Below are positions 12,098 through 28,302 of a stretch of DNA of 28,302 nt, piece by piece. The stretch lies in the IMG/VR virus record IMGVR_UViG_3300035701_000214, positions 1 through 28,302 of that record, one strand, 5' to 3'. The notes beneath the pieces are model-generated. The model saw only the letters and a program-made list of their open reading frames with translations. It did no database searches and was not told the DNA's origin. A program made the translations under genes and the position numbers. Positions within the stretch are counted from its first letter, which is position 1. Every line of letters begins with the position of its first letter. This DNA comes from a virus.

Positions 12098-14950
12098 TTA
12101 ATTGCCAATTGGTTCCGGCGATATAGTCCTCATGTAAAGTTCGGCTATAATATCCCCATATAGTATGGAGTGAAAAGTATCGTCTGGCGCGGAATTAATA
12201 AATCGATACTTTCCCTTTTCCTCATCATAGTCTATCATAATGCCTAGTATATCTTTAGCAAATGGCTGAAAATCTTCCCATTGTGGGAATATGATTTGAC
12301 GATTCTTAATCTTGTTGAAAAGCCAGGTCATCATTCTATTTCGGCTGAGTGTATACGCATTTATTTTTTGATTCCAAGACATCATTTGTTTTTGATTCCC
12401 TTGGTGAAGAAGTGCGATTAAGCGTGTAGAGTTGGCTAACCTTCTTCTGATTTCTGAATTAACTGATTCACCAAAACCAGCATCAGCCCCAATAAGCATG
12501 CAATTCCAACGGGCGAACTCAGCGGGGATTGTTCTGTGTATGTACGCATAGTCAGATTCCTTTCCTTCATATTTTTTCAAATAAAGAACTTCGGTCATAT
12601 TACCCTTCTTCTGGATAATTGATTCCACAGTTTTGGAATTCTCCGAATTGATAGGTCCCCAGTCCATTCCCATGAAGGTAGGATATGATCCGGTATAACT
12701 ATCAGGGCCATGGCGCATAGGTCCTCCTGTACAACAGGCACGTATCTCCCTTTCGGTAATGGGCTGTACTCCCGCATCGTAAGGAAGTCCTATGTACTCG
12801 TTAAGGAAGAGTCCTCGAGGTTTCTGCTGGAAAGGAATAACGACGTCTTTTTGCCAATCAACCCAGGGAGAATGTGCGAACATTAAAACAGATATTCTAA
12901 AACCTTCGAAAATGTATTGCCCGGTTTTTTCAGATACGTGTGATTTGGGATTCGTTCGCACCCACTGTCCATTGCGTGCATCGAGCGACTGATGACATTT
13001 ATTACATCCTAGACCCCAAGGCTGTATATTATTTTCTGTGAGATAGTTCCAATATTGACAATGAGCGCATAGAACGAACCATTCATTTTGTGTGGATGCC
13101 GTCCAACGAGAAGCGAGCGTACCAATAGTCCGTTTGGGAGTGCCAGCATATAGTGTCCGTTTATACAGCGAACGTGACATGGCCTGTTGTATAACGGATA
13201 TATTGTCGTCAGGAATGTCCTGAATCTCATCAGCAAAAATCTGATCAACAGAGAGACCTCTGGCCTTGTCAGCGGAAGCTGCAGCATATCGGAAATACAT
13301 CGAGGAACCATTAATGAACCTCTTATGAAAAACGTTCTGTATTTGGCTCGAGTTAACATAGTGTCGTTTAATTATTGGGCTTTGTTCGATCACAGGAGAA
13401 ACTCTATCATGACTGAACACCTTAACCTGCTCTACTGTAGGTGCAATGTAGAGAGTACGAAATCCTCCGGAGAACTCCGGACGTACCTGTGGCATAATGC
13501 ACATCTTACTCACGGCGAGATTTGCCAAAGTTGTGGAATTATGTGTCACTAAATTATCTATTAAAAATGTATTATGCGGATATTCCATTTCTATAGATGT
13601 GGTGGATTCGGGGATGGATATTCCGATTTCTACAATCCGGTCGTATATGATGTCTGCATCATAGATAGTTTTTAAATAATCATCATGAAGATTTTCCTTC
13701 AATTCCCTAAGTTTAGAGTAGGTTAGATCGTATCCTAATGACCATTGTGTCCATCCATGATCATGTCTGGAATTCCTTAGATTACCGTATTGTTGTTTCT
13801 TTAGTTTCTTAAAATAAGGTTGTAATGCCTTCTTGGGAATTACAAGACGATTATTGTTTTGTTCTTTTTTATTATACGGCTTCAGTTTTCGTGTAGAAAT
13901 AAGTTCATAGAAACGTTCTACTGAATCAGCACCCTCGACTCGTAATTTATAAACTTGTTTATCCGTACCTTCGTATATTTTGGGATTCTGAATGGACTTT
14001 GTAGTATGAATACCTAACCTGAGCAAGAGTTCCTGAAGCCCATCAATAAGTTCTTTGGAGATAAGTGCTATACCAATATCTGGAAGAGAGGCACGTCCTT
14101 TGATAGATACATAACCATCTGTATTCCACCATATACGAATATAATCTTGAAGTTGTTCTTTTGTTAGTTTAAAAATAAGGGGCGGATGAAACTTAATATC
14201 AGATTTTTTACCCATTAATTTTAAATCGATCAACCATTGTTTTAAGGGATTTAAATGTTCGTGTTCTACACCATATTTAAAGCATACGGCAAATTGCCCT
14301 ATAATATTATACTCTCTTAATTCCAAAGTATCATTAAAAGATTGTATATTACAATTTAATTCATCTGAATTATCTTTTTCAATATTTGTATATTTTATTG
14401 ATTTCGTCGATAATCCTCCTTCGGCCAGAAGATGTGCCAATATTATATACTCGTGATCTGGCACAGTTTTTTCTATTGGAAGTGCCGATGAGTTATTCCG
14501 CGATAATCCAATTAAATCTCCTACCTTCAGATCTCTTGCTTCGGTCCATTTTGGATTTAATGTCCAGAATGGATGTTCGGCTGTTACTTCAGCTATACGA
14601 CCTGTACGAGTTTTGATAGTATAGATTGGTTTCTTACCATTATCTTCAACATCTTTTATTTTGTTAACAACTATTTTTTGAGTTTCTTCATCGAGGGAAA
14701 GTAATTCATCTCCGGCTTTCAAATCTTTTATATATTTTTTTTCTCCAGTAGCTAAATAAATTTGTGAAGAATCGCGGAGACATTTGGCTACCTGGCGGCT
14801 CGTGTGGAGAACTATTTCTGGTGAGTCGATGTTATAAATAATTCTCATATGAGGATAGTCCTCAAGTGAGAAAGGTTTGAAGTTCAGATAACAGAACTTC
14901 TCTACAAAATCAGACATCGTGGTTGTTAATGAAGTAGCCAATTTAACCAA
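12098..14950 (-). CDS. terL: Terminase large subunit, interrupted by an intein in the P-loop
   Basis: This is the motor ATPase and nuclease that packages DNA into the prohead. Residues are counted from TTG 14950, which overlaps the glycosyltransferase gene; ATG 14917, after that gene's stop, is equally or more likely. The P-loop SRQVAK|STT is split by an intein at 57-471. Joined exteins give about 535 aa, a normal terminase length. Walker B is IFADE (571-575), followed by the coupling motif YAGTPK (601-606). Two CxxC pairs (628/631, 649/652) form a zinc-knuckle insert as in some large terminases. The RNase H-like nuclease shows FMGMDWG (D763), IGADAG (D823) and a late APDD acidic site. The P-loop has Ala where Gly is usual. 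Confidence 0.93.
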   Translation of the reverse strand: MVKLATSLTTTMSDFVEKFCYLNFKPFSLEDYPHMRIIYNIDSPEIVLHTSRQVAKCLRDSSQIYLATGEKKYIKDLKAGDELLSLDEETQKIVVNKIKDVEDNGKKPIYTIKTRTGRIAEVTAEHPFWTLNPKWTEARDLKVGDLIGLSRNNSSALPIEKTVPDHEYIILAHLLAEGGLSTKSIKYTNIEKDNSDELNCNIQSFNDTLELREYNIIGQFAVCFKYGVEHEHLNPLKQWLIDLKLMGKKSDIKFHPPLIFKLTKEQLQDYIRIWWNTDGYVSIKGRASLPDIGIALISKELIDGLQELLLRLGIHTTKSIQNPKIYEGTDKQVYKLRVEGADSVERFYELISTRKLKPYNKKEQNNNRLVIPKKALQPYFKKLKKQQYGNLRNSRHDHGWTQWSLGYDLTYSKLRELKENLHDDYLKTIYDADIIYDRIVEIGISIPESTTSIEMEYPHNTFLIDNLVTHNSTTLANLAVSKMCIMPQVRPEFSGGFRTLYIAPTVEQVKVFSHDRVSPVIEQSPIIKRHYVNSSQIQNVFHKRFINGSSMYFRYAAASADKARGLSVDQIFADEIQDIPDDNISVIQQAMSRSLYKRTLYAGTPKRTIGTLASRWTASTQNEWFVLCAHCQYWNYLTENNIQPWGLGCNKCHQSLDARNGQWVRTNPKSHVSEKTGQYIFEGFRISVLMFAHSPWVDWQKDVVIPFQQKPRGLFLNEYIGLPYDAGVQPITEREIRACCTGGPMRHGPDSYTGSYPTFMGMDWGPINSENSKTVESIIQKKGNMTEVLYLKKYEGKESDYAYIHRTIPAEFARWNCMLIGADAGFGESVNSEIRRRLANSTRLIALLHQGNQKQMMSWNQKINAYTLSRNRMMTWLFNKIKNRQIIFPQWEDFQPFAKDILGIMIDYDEEKGKYRFINSAPDDTFHSILYGDIIAELYMRTISPEPIGN
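13538..14782 (-). mobile_element. Intein with LAGLIDADG homing endonuclease in terL
   Basis: A 415-residue in-frame protein intron. It starts with Cys57 (CLRDSSQIYL, block A), has the block B motif VTAEHPFWT (Thr123, His126), and ends with block F/G sequence TFLIDNLVTHN, with His470-Asn471 before the +1 Ser472 of the extein. All residues needed for splicing are present. The middle contains two LAGLIDADG-like motifs, ILAHLLAEGG (E177) and YIRIWWNTDG (D278), so the homing endonuclease is probably active. The segment is visibly more AT-rich than the flanking terminase, consistent with later acquisition. Insertion within the ATP-binding P-loop means the precursor cannot act as a packaging ATPase until spliced. 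Confidence 0.92.
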
Positions 14951-24241: not shown

Positions 24242-24448
24242 ATGTCGCTTTTTTTAGTAACCAAAAAAGGGGATTCCAAGAAGACTTTTGGGGTATATAA
24301 AGTCTTCACCCCGGAAACAGGTCTGGGTCTAGACGCCGATCCAAATGATCTACAATTTCTAATCTGGGACGAGGATTGGAAAATCGTACATGCTCAAGAC
24401 TATGAACCAGAAGAATTTGATATGTTCAACGTACCGGAAGAGGATTAA
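24242..24448 (+). CDS. Small acidic protein, first rightward gene (68 aa)
   Basis: No family was recognised. The product is an acidic, soluble, beta-rich 68-residue protein (FLVTKKGDSKKTFGVYKV; LQFLIWDEDWKIVHAQDY) ending in a strongly acidic tail. AAAGGAGGG stands just before ATG 24242, an excellent ribosome site. It is the first gene to the right of the divergent control region, so it is probably expressed early or under the same repressor. Acidic small first genes of phage early operons often inhibit host proteins, but nothing here shows which. Confidence 0.6.
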   Translation: MSLFLVTKKGDSKKTFGVYKVFTPETGLGLDADPNDLQFLIWDEDWKIVHAQDYEPEEFDMFNVPEED

Positions 24449-24452
24449 CTTT

Positions 24453-24746
24453 ATGTCAACGGGAGACTTTCCGTACACACAATATGATGCGGATGTTCTA
24501 TTTGAGTTTATACGAAAGATGGGCGCTGCCCCTTCTCTTGGAAAGTCAGGCAGCACAATACTTCCGCCATATACTCCAAAAGATGAAGAGGAGCCTGTCA
24601 CATGGGACGCCGCCACTCTTCAGGATGTTCTTGAACGATTAAGGCGACTGGAACATATTACATCAATCATTCTTTTAGCAGGAGGTATCAATGTCGCTGG
24701 GAGTGGGAACAATAGTAAGACTGAAGGTACCGTGCCTGGGCAATGA
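24453..24746 (+). CDS. Hypothetical small protein (97 aa)
   Basis: ATG 24453, preceded by AGAGG and starting 4 nt after the previous stop, is preferred over an ATG 63 nt upstream that lies inside the first gene. The product begins MSTGDFPYTQYDADVLFEF and has an acidic Pro-rich middle (PPYTPKDEEEP). A helix with Leu heptads follows (TLQDVLERLRRLEHITSIILL). The last 18 codons overlap the next gene in another frame. The helix could mediate dimer formation, as in small phage membrane or tail accessory proteins; function unknown. Confidence 0.5.
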   Translation: MSTGDFPYTQYDADVLFEFIRKMGAAPSLGKSGSTILPPYTPKDEEEPVTWDAATLQDVLERLRRLEHITSIILLAGGINVAGSGNNSKTEGTVPGQ

Positions 24747-24966
24747 TGCCGGTGCACGAGGTTATGTTTTCAATAATTATGGAGATGGTTGCCAGGTGAT
24801 TTTCCCCAATGGGGAGTATGATGGTTTTGGCGATCGCCCTGATTCGGAAGAAGTAAATGTCTTCCTTGATGTTGTAGGAAAATCGGATCTACCTTATAAT
24901 TTTACAAACGTGATGAGATTATCGCGTGACTTTGATAATCACTATTTCAAGGAGGTCTTCGAATGA
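24691..24966 (+). CDS. Small beta-rich protein, SH3/KOW-like (91 aa)
   Basis: AGGAGG five nt before ATG 24691 is one of the best ribosome sites in the window, so this gene is real although it overlaps the 97-aa gene by 56 nt. Residues 4-48 (VGTIVRLKV, GARGYVFNNYGDG, CQVIFPNGEYDGFG) have the strand-turn pattern of SH3- or KOW-like barrels. The rest contains VFLDVVGKSDLPYNF and an acidic end. No exact family was recognised. Its stop overlaps the PspC gene start as ATGA. Confidence 0.6.
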   Translation: MSLGVGTIVRLKVPCLGNDAGARGYVFNNYGDGCQVIFPNGEYDGFGDRPDSEEVNVFLDVVGKSDLPYNFTNVMRLSRDFDNHYFKEVFE

Positions 24967-25160
24967 ATCGTTGGTATAGATCCACACATGATAGAGTATT
25001 CTCCGGATTATGTGGAGGTCTGTCGCGACTTATAGATATAGATCCAACACTTGTGCGACTTATTGCCATACTCATTATGGTTGGTGTAGGAATATTTCCT
25101 TTCCTCATAGGATATCTCTTCCTAACCTGGACTGTCCCCGAAGATCCCTATGGATACTAA
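24963..25160 (+). CDS. pspC: PspC-domain membrane protein (65 aa)
   Basis: The whole 65-residue product is a PspC domain. It has a basic N-terminus, RVFSGLCGGLS, then DIDPTLVRLIAILIMVGVG and a second hydrophobic stretch, LIGYLFLTWTVPEDP. In bacteria PspC is an inner-membrane sensor of the phage-shock response, which protects the proton-motive force from holin- or secretin-like damage. This is a minimal, stand-alone form with one long or two short membrane helices. It overlaps the previous gene by ATGA and the next by 11 nt. In a phage it may delay membrane collapse or affect the host stress response; that is inference. Confidence 0.88.
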   Translation: MNRWYRSTHDRVFSGLCGGLSRLIDIDPTLVRLIAILIMVGVGIFPFLIGYLFLTWTVPEDPYGY

Positions 25161-25293
25161 GGATGCGGTTGAGGAGATGAAGAAGTACTTCGCCCGGGAA
25201 AAGAAGAAAGATGGCTGGACTATAAAGGAGATTGCCAAAGAACTCAACATAACTCAAACTGAAGTAAAAGAACTACTGAAGGAGAAACCATGA
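25150..25293 (+). CDS. Helix-turn-helix micro-protein (47 aa)
   Basis: A 47-residue frame from ATG 25150 to TGA 25293. The first 20 residues are Lys/Glu-rich (EEMKKYFAREKKKDG). Residues 23-45 (WTIKEIAKELNITQTEVKELLKEK) have the spacing of a helix-turn-helix of the sigma-4 or resolvase type. It overlaps the PspC gene by 11 nt and the next gene as ATGA, which supports that it is translated. The Shine-Dalgarno is weak. It may be a small DNA-binding regulator, perhaps of this operon. Confidence 0.6.
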   Translation: MDTKDAVEEMKKYFAREKKKDGWTIKEIAKELNITQTEVKELLKEKP

Positions 25294-25430
25294 GGATAGG
25301 AATAACTCGAAAATGGAGATTCAGAAATGGCTGGTCCTGGTCTCGCGAGAATACTGAGACTTACATCAGGTGGTTTCAATTCGGCTTTTTTATTATTGAG
25401 TTCACGCTTAAAGGAGATATAAATATATGA
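25290..25430 (+). CDS. Micro-protein, aromatic/basic (46 aa)
   Basis: A 46-residue frame from ATG 25290, which has an excellent GAAGGAG upstream and an ATGA overlap with the preceding gene. It begins with a basic Trp/Arg-rich part (ITRKWRFRNGWSWSRE) and has a hydrophobic Phe/Ile-rich stretch (WFQFGFFIIEFTL). It could attach to a membrane. It ends by ATGA overlap with the next gene. The chain of overlaps and the strong ribosome site are the evidence that it is real. Function unknown. Confidence 0.55.
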   Translation: MRIGITRKWRFRNGWSWSRENTETYIRWFQFGFFIIEFTLKGDINI

Positions 25431-25597
25431 GTGATAAGGAAATAAAGGATCTCTGGTTAGATATTGTTTTAGGAAAGGGGAACCATGGAAGCTTTCTCGT
25501 ATCATTTGGAGAAACGCTTCTCAAGGCAGATGCCGAGAATTTCCAGCTCCTCAAACCAATAGCTCTCATACTCATGGAGAAATATTCACTGGAATAA
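25427..25597 (+). CDS. Small conserved phage-type protein (56 aa)
   Basis: A 56-residue helical product with GKGNHGSFLVSFGETLLKA, then DAENFQLLKPIALILMEKY. From memory this pattern (GxHGxFLxxFAxxxLxADxENFxxLxPxA) is frequent among small uncharacterised phage proteins, so it is probably a genuine gene. AAAGGAG is eight nt upstream of ATG 25427, which overlaps the previous stop as ATGA. The role is unknown. Confidence 0.65.
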   Translation: MSDKEIKDLWLDIVLGKGNHGSFLVSFGETLLKADAENFQLLKPIALILMEKYSLE

Positions 25598-25605
25598 GGA
25601 AACAT

Positions 25606-26064
25606 ATGCAGGAGATTACATCATTCACGGATAAGTTTCGATTCCTTTCCAACTTCTATCCCGCTCCTGTGGAGTTCGAGGTGGCAGTATACCCCACTGT
25701 CGAACATGCCTATCAAGCGGCTAAGACTCAGGATCCCACAATTCGGGCAGAAATATGTAATGCGCCTACTCCTGGAAAAGCGAAGAGAATGGGCTTCGCC
25801 ATAAAACTCCGAGAAAATTGGACGGAGATCAATGGCGAAATCATGCTGGAACTCCTCTACAAGAAATTTAATATTCCCGCACTAGGTGAACTACTTCTTA
25901 ATACCGGAGATGCTCAGCTTATTGAAGGGAATGATTGGGGAGATACGTACTGGGGGAAGGTACGTGGAGAGGATGGAAAATGGGAAGGTTCTAATCTTCT
26001 TGGAAAATTGCTCGAGTTGGTGCGTGAAGACATGCGTCAATTATACTCAACCACAATTCATTAA
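25606..26064 (+). CDS. NADAR-family protein (YbiA-like)
   Basis: This 152-aa protein matches the NADAR family end to end: KFRFLSNFYP (near 10-19), TVEHAYQAAK (31-40), the helical EIMLELLYKKF, TGDAQLIEGNDWGDTYWG (about 100-117) and a final SNLLGKLLELVRE. NADAR proteins are hydrolases acting on ADP-ribose-linked or ribosylamine substrates. E. coli YbiA degrades toxic riboflavin intermediates, and some NADAR proteins remove ADP-ribose from guanine in DNA, reversing DarT-type toxins. AAGGAAACAT before ATG 25606 gives a ribosome site. In a phage it may undo ADP-ribosylation-based defence or rebalance NAD metabolites. The fold assignment is firm; the substrate is not. Confidence 0.92.
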   Translation: MQEITSFTDKFRFLSNFYPAPVEFEVAVYPTVEHAYQAAKTQDPTIRAEICNAPTPGKAKRMGFAIKLRENWTEINGEIMLELLYKKFNIPALGELLLNTGDAQLIEGNDWGDTYWGKVRGEDGKWEGSNLLGKLLELVREDMRQLYSTTIH

Positions 26065-26074
26065 AGGGGACTCT

Positions 26075-27130
26075 ATGAAAAATATAGTTACTACAATAAT
26101 CTTTCTGCTACTCTATACGGGAATGCTTTATTCTCAAGCACCCGTGTGTGTTTCGGAAGCTACACATGCCATTAAGAATGCAGGCCTCTCAGGATCGATA
26201 TACTCATTCGACGTACATTCTCAACTGAATACAGGAGAGATGAAAGTCGAAGGGGGTATTTTCAAGTTCCATTATAATTCGTCGGCTCTATCTCTTCCCG
26301 AAGTTCTTCCCATGGGAAGATATGTAGGCTACTCGACTCAGGCAATTCGCTCGGGGGATACTCTCACTGTTACTCTTACTTCTGGAGGAACAGCTGTATG
26401 GATCTCTCATGTTGAGGATCCTCTATTTCGAGTAAGGTTCTCCATCACCAATCCTTCCGCCACTGGACAACTCTACTGGATAAGGAAAGGCGGCTTTCCA
26501 GGAATAGTTAATCATTTCTGTGGAGGAGACGATTCCGTTCTTCCTGTTCAACTCACGCAATTCACGGGGGAATTCGATGGAACAAAAGTCACACTTAACT
26601 GGATCACTGCAAGCGAGGTGAACAATTTCGGCTTCTATATTGAAAAAAGTTCTTCTGGAATTGAGAGATGGTTTAATATTGGATTTGTTGGGGGTCACGG
26701 AACCACCGTCTCTCCACACTCCTATAGCTTTTCATATGATACTCGAGTTTCATCGGAAGCCTATCGTCTCCGTCAACTAGACTTGGACGGATCCTACCAA
26801 TACTCGGATAATGTACTTCCGAGAAACATCGGTATTAGCGGGGTTACAGATTCTGCAGCGCCTATAGGGAAAACAGCGCTTCATCAGAACTTCCCGAATC
26901 CGTTCAATCCGGAGACGCAAATTTTGTTCGTGGTCGATAAACCCGGACCCATTTCTCTCAGGGTATATGATCTCATGGGGAAAGAGGTAGCCGTGCTTGT
27001 AAATGAATTCCGAAAAGAAGGGACATATACAGAGCGTTTCAAAGGTGAGGGACTTTCTTCAGGTACTTACATTTATACACTGCAAACGGCAGAAGGTCGA
27101 CTCGTGAGGAGAATGGTGTTAGTAAAGTAA
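26075..27130 (+). CDS. Secreted protein with T9SS C-terminal sorting domain
   Basis: The start ATG 26075 (AAAGGGG upstream) gives a classic signal peptide, about residues 1-22 (IVTTIIFLLLYTGML, cleaved near YSQA); an in-frame ATG inside the NADAR gene would hide it. The 351-aa product has an N-terminal cohesin-like beta region (30-150). A fibronectin-like domain follows, starting LPVQLTQFTGEF with LNWITASEVNNFGFYIEKS. The type IX sorting domain at the end has LHQNFPNPFNPETQ, ISLRVYDLMGKEVAVLVNE and SSGTYIYTLQTAEGRLV. This architecture is typical of Ignavibacteria and relatives, where the domain sends proteins through the T9SS to the cell surface. It is either phage cargo or the first host gene. 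Confidence 0.9.
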   Translation: MKNIVTTIIFLLLYTGMLYSQAPVCVSEATHAIKNAGLSGSIYSFDVHSQLNTGEMKVEGGIFKFHYNSSALSLPEVLPMGRYVGYSTQAIRSGDTLTVTLTSGGTAVWISHVEDPLFRVRFSITNPSATGQLYWIRKGGFPGIVNHFCGGDDSVLPVQLTQFTGEFDGTKVTLNWITASEVNNFGFYIEKSSSGIERWFNIGFVGGHGTTVSPHSYSFSYDTRVSSEAYRLRQLDLDGSYQYSDNVLPRNIGISGVTDSAAPIGKTALHQNFPNPFNPETQILFVVDKPGPISLRVYDLMGKEVAVLVNEFRKEGTYTERFKGEGLSSGTYIYTLQTAEGRLVRRMVLVK

Positions 27131-27149
27131 TTATTTAAAAGGAAAATAG

Positions 27150-27335
27150 ATGGAAAAAGATGCAAAAGCAACAGTACCTCTACTGGATATTAAAGTAGGC
27201 GAACGCTTCATGCTGCAGAACGTTGAGTATGAACGCGTTGGAGATAAGGTAGAGGACGGAACAATATACTGTAAGGACATAAAGAACGGTGGAGCAGGTC
27301 TATTATCCGCCGAACATAAAGTGGTAAGGAAGTAA
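27150..27335 (+). CDS. Small beta-rich phage-type protein (61 aa)
   Basis: A 61-residue product with LLDIKVGERFMLQNVEYERVGD and a later YCKDI segment. The pattern L-x-x-G-x-x-F-x-x-x-[GN]-V-x-Y-x-[KR] is familiar from short uncharacterised phage proteins that form a small beta-barrel. AAAAGGAAAATAG precedes ATG 27150, 19 nt after the stop of the secreted protein. If the assignment is right, phage-like sequence extends to the right of the T9SS gene, which supports its being phage cargo. Function unknown. Confidence 0.55.
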   Translation: MEKDAKATVPLLDIKVGERFMLQNVEYERVGDKVEDGTIYCKDIKNGGAGLLSAEHKVVRK

Positions 27336-27345
27336 CGATCCTTAA

Positions 27346-27374
27346 GGGTGCTCGGCTTGTATCACCGAGCACTC
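27346..27374 (+). terminator. Strong hairpin after the small gene (terminator-like, no U-tract)
   Basis: GGGTGCTCGG (27346-27355) pairs with CCGAGCACTC (27365-27374), one G-T pair, around a 9-nt loop, starting 10 nt after the stop of the 61-aa gene. No T-run follows, so it may be a processing or structured-RNA element rather than an intrinsic terminator. Confidence 0.45.
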
Positions 27375-27388
27375 ACAGGGTCATGCAG

Positions 27389-27456
27389 CGGCAAGAATAC
27401 TAATCTATACGTGTGACGGTGACCGTCAAACTATTTAGATGCCCCCGTACTTGCCG
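27389..27456. ncRNA. Candidate structured RNA with nested helices
   Basis: Three nested inverted repeats occupy this gap: CGGCAAG (27389-27395) with CTTGCCG (27450-27456), ATCTA (27403-27407) with TAGAT (27436-27440), and GACGG (27415-27419) with CCGTC (27423-27427) around TGA. They could fold into one long interrupted hairpin, 33 nt upstream of the beta-helix gene on the plus strand. No known riboswitch class was recognised, and which strand is used is unknown. Confidence 0.35.
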
Positions 27457-27488
27457 ACGTTTCACATACATCAACAGGAACATCTTAC

Positions 27489-28302
27489 ATGAACAGACGT
27501 AGCTTTTTCGGTTTTATTTTTTGTTTTTTTATTTTTACTTACCAGAGTTTCTCAGGATCATGGTATACATCTCCTACGGGAAATGGTAATGGAAGTATCG
27601 GGAATCCCTGGTCCCTCCAGACTGCGCTAAATCATCCGGCCTCGGTTCAACCTGGAGATACTATATGGCTTCGGGGAGGAACATATCGTGGTTACTTCAA
27701 AAGTTTTCTCAAAGGAACATCTAGCAAACCAATTATTGTGCGGGAATATCCCAGGGAACATGCAACCATAGATGGCGGGAATTCCCAGCAGGAAGACATC
27801 CTCAGAGTCAACGGTAATTACACATGGTATTGGGGATTTGAAATTTTTAGTTCTGACCCCGTGCGCTATACCTCGGAGACAGGCTCGTTTCCTTCGTGGC
27901 AGTCGATGGGTCGTGGGCAGTGCATCAATGTTGGAAATGATCCAGGCAATCCAACCTTCGGAAACAAGTTCATCAACCTGGTACTTCATGACGGCTTCAA
28001 CGGCTTTGGGGCGTGGGTCCCTTCCGGAACAGAAGTGTATGGATGCCTTTCCTATAATAATGGATGGGTTGCTCCCGATCGGCCGCATGGACACAATGTG
28101 TACACTCAAAATGAAACGGGAAGTGAACGAACGTTCATCGAGAATATCATATGGGGTGCATTTGAAAATAATGTGCAGGCATATGGTACGCGATACACTG
28201 ATGATCTATACTTCGAGAAAAATATCTCGTTCATGTCCGGTGGAGATGGAAGATGTCTACTAATCGGAGGAGGCGGTGTTAGCCACAATGCTATTCTTAA
28301 GG
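27489..28302 (+). CDS. Secreted right-handed beta-helix protein (pectate-lyase-like), C-terminus beyond window
   Basis: The frame opens at ATG 27489 and stays open to the window edge (271 codons), so it is incomplete. A signal peptide is visible (basic MNRRSFFGF then a Phe/Ile-rich core, about 1-22). It is followed by the start typical of parallel beta-helix proteins: a Gly/Asn-rich cap (GNGNGSIGNPWSL), PGDTIWLRGGTYRG and KPIIVREYPREHATIDGG. Repeating coils with Asn and Gly turns follow (NKFINLVLHDGF, VYGCLSYNNGW, FIENIIWGAFENN). Such proteins bind or cleave polysaccharides such as pectin or alginate. AGGA lies about 8 nt upstream. A T9SS sorting domain may lie in the missing C-terminus. A phage depolymerase is possible, but tailspikes do not normally carry signal peptides. 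Confidence 0.82.
   Translation, partial: MNRRSFFGFIFCFFIFTYQSFSGSWYTSPTGNGNGSIGNPWSLQTALNHPASVQPGDTIWLRGGTYRGYFKSFLKGTSSKPIIVREYPREHATIDGGNSQQEDILRVNGNYTWYWGFEIFSSDPVRYTSETGSFPSWQSMGRGQCINVGNDPGNPTFGNKFINLVLHDGFNGFGAWVPSGTEVYGCLSYNNGWVAPDRPHGHNVYTQNETGSERTFIENIIWGAFENNVQAYGTRYTDDLYFEKNISFMSGGDGRCLLIGGGGVSHNAILK

Follow-up and report, generated by a model that had tools for sequence, protein, structure and literature searches.

A candidate phage accessory gene for a type IX secretion cargo protein and its counterparts in other phages

Cargo of the type IX secretion system (T9SS) is exported by Sec, recognised through its C-terminal domain, translocated across the outer membrane and then attached to the surface or released (PMC7468147). 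Phage genes for such cargo have precedents. Cryophage, a 76-kb Bacteroidetes phage, carries three T9SS cargo genes, for which a hijack of the host T9SS and superinfection exclusion were proposed, and such cargo varies between phage variants (Bellas et al. 2020, PMC7468147). T9SS domains were also reported in 2019 in BACON-domain phage contigs (PMC6949934), and phage proteins bearing the name 'Secretion system C-terminal sorting domain' are present in UniProt. The original prediction for the locus presented here stated that no system of this kind had been described. That statement is contradicted by PMC7468147, which has both phage T9SS cargo and the hijack idea, and by PMC6949934, which has the domains.

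The viral contig and its small-gene arm

The window, by which we mean the whole stretch of DNA analysed (28,302 bases), is the entire IMG/VR record IMGVR_UViG_3300035701_000214, which stops at 28302. Its phage hallmarks are TerL (phrog_675, 1.3e-57) and a major head protein (phrog_2522, 1.4e-10). Coding runs leftward in a late phage cluster as far as about 24.1 kb; from 24.2 kb a series of small genes reads rightward. Relatives of TerL at about 80% identity occur in several contigs, the longest being G006 (IMGVR_UViG_3300027887_000011, 71.6 kb) and G002 (3300032516_000036, 53.6 kb). The small-gene arm past the late genes extends for at least 8 kb in G006 and at least 7.5 kb in G002, compared with 4.1 kb in the window. 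Comparison of the DNA at 23.0-28.3 kb with 15 records (14 from the terminase search, plus G015), and of 23.5-28.3 kb with INPHARED, gave only short NADAR-region matches of use. The TerL gene of the window (12098-14950, minus strand) contains an intein-like insert of about 415 aa in the ATPase P-loop region (QVAK/CLRDSSQIY...NLVTHN/STTLAN), which is missing from the relatives of about 80% identity G006, G002, G003, G004 and G007. Another relative, G012, encodes tail-fibre-like proteins that open with Sec signal peptides (L032, 2847-3731 and 4445-5158), a few kb beyond its major head gene. The features of the right-hand part of the window are as follows.

24242..25597, plus strand: small phage genes (24242, 24390/24454, 24691, PspC-like 24963, HTH 25150, 25290, 25427), with homologues in G006 and other viral contigs
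25606..26064, plus strand: NADAR-domain gene, phage-conserved (PF08719, 1.9e-25; phrog_1017, 2.1e-41)
26075..27130, plus strand: predicted Sec-exported protein of 351 aa with a type A T9SS sorting domain (TIGR04183, PF18962; signal peptide by inspection)
26075..26137, plus strand: Sec signal peptide MKNIVTTIIFLLLYTGMLYSQ, followed by A (translation, by inspection)
26891..27118, plus strand: T9SS C-terminal sorting domain (TIGR04183 positions 2-70 of 72)
27150..27335, plus strand: 61-aa ORF, 20 bp after the T9SS gene, with a AAAAGGAAAATAG-ATG start context
27336..27488, no strand: structured intergenic stretch (fold z-score -3.65) with a 10-bp hairpin and a TGACGGTGACCGTCA palindrome
27489..28302, plus strand: beta-helix/polysaccharide-lyase-like protein with an N-terminal signal peptide; 271 aa seen, cut by the contig end

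The T9SS gene had been predicted to end a chain of phage-type small genes, and the comparison with G006 bears out the chain: five genes of the arm (24242, 24691, 25150, 25427 and 25606) have homologues in the same arm of that contig. The NADAR homologue there is 45% identical, and 24691 has homologues in nine further viral contigs. One of the small genes (24963-25160) encodes a 65-aa PspC-domain membrane protein (PF04024, 1.1e-15), an envelope-related phage accessory gene. The T9SS gene starts 10 bp downstream of the NADAR gene, an operon-like placement, with a ribosome-site-like AAAGGGG. In G006 the stretch after NADAR holds genes for predicted lipoproteins and for exported small proteins, and no T9SS gene; the slot after NADAR seems to be a variable site for exported products. 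No second contig with the NADAR-T9SS junction was found, and the contigs that share the 91-aa gene showed no arm extension beyond NADAR.

The sorting-domain protein and its right-hand neighbours

The mechanical ORF of the T9SS gene opens at GTG 25886. ATG 26075 is most likely the true start, because AAAGGGG precedes it and the resulting protein begins with a signal peptide. This N-terminus (MKNIVTTIIFLLLYTGMLYSQ, followed by AP) reads by inspection as a Sec type I signal peptide. The TIGR04183 match at 26891-27118 (E 6.3e-12, 40.5 bits; curated cut-off 23) corresponds to residues 273-348 (NCBIfam, 1.6e-9), and Pfam PF18962 also matches (1.5e-6, 28.9 bits; cut-off 27). The domain is thus above both curated cut-offs, and it sits at the extreme C-terminus, three residues short of the protein end. 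The combination of a signal peptide with a complete T9SS domain, as originally predicted, is therefore sustained by a near-complete profile match and by inspection of the N-terminus. AlphaFold2 gives two confident beta-sandwiches, at residues ~159-251 and 268-351, a pair that in the model is as expected for an FN3-like linker and a sorting domain; the N-terminal 155 residues are without a confident model.

The C-terminal 200 aa share about 35-42% identity with their closest counterparts, surface proteins of Ignavibacteria/Bacteroidota, a likeness that clearly points to a host origin of the gene by ancestry. The N-terminal part (residues 22-157, ~130 aa) had no match among 296 genomes from the phylum to which an Ignavibacterium genome belongs. 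A search of IMG/VR with the protein's own peptides returned no relative, and the hits of fold searches were limited to widespread FN3/Ig arrangements plus some phage proteins of the Fn3/sorting-domain type.

No relatives were found for the 61-aa ORF, which the original prediction had passed over. It is separated from the beta-helix gene by the 153-bp gap at 27336-27488, which belongs to no Rfam family. The longest copy of the gap sequence elsewhere in the window is 11 nt, the opposite phage end lying outside the record. A secreted beta-helix protein had been predicted to follow, and this holds in part. The protein at 27489 starts, by inspection, with a signal peptide; its assignment as a beta-helix is only moderately supported, by a weak PelN match (1.1e-4) and by weak matches of its N-terminal part to alginate lyase and PL6 entries of the PDB (E 0.0036-0.1). 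It matched no Pfam family, and its AlphaFold2 model was too poor for use. Clear relatives are encoded in two other viral contigs (L219, 7992-9944; L220, 737-2425), and a genome of a T9SS-bearing phylum contains a 38% match (L251). Neither L219 nor L220 starts with a signal peptide, and both have structural-looking genes next to them, a setting that would suit tail spikes. The copy in the window may represent this phage beta-helix family in an exported form.

Sorting-domain genes in other phages

The search for the T9SS domain in other phage genomes that the original prediction had proposed was fruitful, with the domain found in three megaphages and three T4-like contigs. A scan of IMG/VR with the exact pattern QNFPNPFNP found one other contig, G015, and the looser pattern N[FY]PNPFNP found 49 stretches. 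The sorting domain was above cut-off in 38 of the 49 records searched (46 from IMG/VR and three megaphages). These 38 are not all certain phages: the PF03237 terminase was above cut-off in seven of the 37 records tested. Because the terminase is this sparse, the case for recurrence rests on the megaphages and the T4-like group. The megaphages LR756500, LR756502 and LR756504 each have a sorting domain and a terminase, and two of them are handled as megaphages in PMC9723777.

The T4-like group consists of G051 (IMGVR_UViG_3300033182_000499), G031 (3300005611_001957) and G042 (3300021197_001630). G051 has T4-type genes for sheath (PF04984), tail tube (PF06841), gp32 (PF08804) and clamp-loader lid (PF21328), and G031 and G042 have many genes in common with it. 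Each of the three encodes a protein of 646-647 aa with a signal peptide and a sorting domain; the G031 and G042 copies are 91% and 69% identical to that of G051, which also has a cohesin domain (PF00963). In G051 the T9SS gene has conserved phage genes on both sides. On this sequence evidence T9SS cargo is a recurring phage trait, present in several unrelated phage types.

In the T4-like contigs the gene lies in a module for exported proteins, at ~13.3-19.0 kb in G051 (L204), 0-5.3 kb in G031 and 26.7-31.8 kb in G042, with largely shared neighbours. The module comprises the signal peptide-cohesin-T9SS protein, a non-specific DNA/RNA endonuclease with a signal peptide (PF01223), a lipoprotein (in G051 and G042) and small membrane proteins. 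Having a periplasmic nuclease next to a surface protein suggests that the module functions in superinfection exclusion. Five IMG/VR contigs that may be phage or host (G034, G035, G039, G047 and G050) have a T9SS gene pair in common, with products of ~1000-1550 aa and 340-550 aa encoded about 4.5 kb apart.

Probable phage cargo, its alternatives and the known systems

We favour, as reasonably probable, an account in which the locus holds a phage accessory gene for T9SS cargo that acts at the cell surface. The gene at 26075-27130 would be an accessory (moron) gene in the variable small-gene arm, in line with the NADAR gene. The host would make the 351-aa protein during infection and Sec would carry it across the inner membrane; the host T9SS would then recognise the C-terminal domain, translocate the protein across the outer membrane and leave it at the cell surface or close by. 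Once in place, the unique N-terminal part (~22-155) would act on or cover surface components, most plausibly altering the adsorption of other phages. Both export signals required by the pathway are present in the protein sequence. Provided that the host has a T9SS, the protein is likely exported by it, and the infected cell probably displays this phage product on its surface. The earlier proposal that the phage redirects the host T9SS is to this extent retained: phage cargo is the better reading, and display follows from the domain architecture. What the protein does at the surface is a guess. Exclusion of other phages is the guess that fits best, because the gene lies among accessory genes and not with those for lysis or structure; receptor masking and polysaccharide remodelling, which had also been put forward, are likewise guesses. 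A broader scheme is doubtful, in which one phage envelope cassette would comprise NADAR, the 61-aa gene and the genes of the T9SS and beta-helix proteins: the cell would be coated via type IX, and the secreted lyase-like protein would trim surface glycan, to the exclusion of competing phages.

The original prediction had posed phage cargo and a prophage-host junction as alternatives. In a prophage-host junction, or a chimeric contig, phage sequence would stop at NADAR, immediately past it or past the 61-aa ORF, with host chromosome supplying the T9SS and beta-helix genes. Both proteins do resemble Ignavibacteria/Bacteroidota host surface proteins. Whereas the left side of the T9SS gene is the phage-conserved NADAR, to the right of 27130 lie the orphan 61-aa ORF, the exported beta-helix/lyase-like gene and the contig end, with no phage-conserved or otherwise phage-specific gene recognised up to 28302, and the structured 153-bp gap could hold a terminator or an att site. 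On the other side, the NADAR gene is only 10 bp away, and comparable genes are internal to other phages. The T9SS gene does not stand out in codon usage (0.047, against -0.008 to 0.084 for the phage genes), and there is no GC step; by tetranucleotide distance the stretch at 24.5-27.2 kb is among the most deviant, yet it includes phage small genes, and no clear boundary emerges. The window contains no tRNA. Neither a tyrosine integrase (PF00589) nor a serine recombinase/resolvase (PF00239) was present in the window or the related contigs, an absence that is only indicative as all of these are fragments. Since the arm runs on for at least 7.5-8 kb in two relatives and no integrase was found, phage cargo is the likelier of the two, and we keep the junction as an unlikely rival. 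The T9SS gene is quite probably phage-owned. For the beta-helix gene ownership is less certain, and we only lean towards the phage.

Granted a phage genome, the gene might be a neutral passenger, recently taken from the host and of no benefit. Its absence from the same slot of G006, and from every other related contig searched, would suit such a passenger, as would the variability of such cargo between phage variants (PMC7468147). The uninterrupted frame, the signal peptide and the full sorting domain argue against it, and the T4-like contigs have retained their cargo gene, 69-91% identical and flanked by conserved neighbours, which points to selection in at least that lineage; we regard a passenger as improbable. 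Far less probable still is a virion component that merely resembles a T9SS protein, its Ig-like domains decorating the tail or capsid. Phage structural proteins often have Ig/FN3-like folds, as the structural matches illustrate, and L219 and L220, the relatives of the neighbouring beta-helix protein, adjoin structural-looking genes. However, a virion protein would not be expected to carry a Sec signal peptide and a family-specific sorting domain, and the T9SS gene is not part of the late cluster and is read from the other strand.

The account of phage-borne T9SS cargo can now be set against the known proteins and phages. The Ignavibacteria/Bacteroidota T9SS surface proteins (L091, L093 and L109) have the same FN3-like linker and sorting domain, with ~40% identity over the C-terminal 200 residues, but they are chromosomal and do not match the N-terminal ~130 residues of the window protein. 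G051, G031 and G042 resemble the window in that a signal peptide and a sorting domain occur in phage gene order, beside exported proteins; they differ in their 646-aa cohesin protein, in a nearby Endonuclease_NS with a signal peptide and in belonging to an unrelated phage type.

That phages use the type IX system has so far been proposed on the basis of sequence. With the trait in several unrelated phage types, what phages display on Bacteroidota-type cells becomes an answerable question. Cryophage, like the window, codes for type A sorting-domain proteins, and its genes lie in variable genome slots. Its cargo consists of an endoglucanase, a GH39 protein and a PA14 protein, in contrast to the FN3-like protein of the window, whose N-terminus is unassigned, and the Cryophage genome is circular and complete whereas the window is a fragment; the two are likened here by description. 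The BACON cluster-2 contigs (PMC6949934) share with the window T9SS sorting-domain genes in phage contigs of presumed Bacteroidetes hosts, but their T9SS genes lie near the head module and are linked to BACON domains, unlike that of the window. Judged by sequence, the window gene joins a known kind, to which the present comparison adds at least two more unrelated phage types with the trait.
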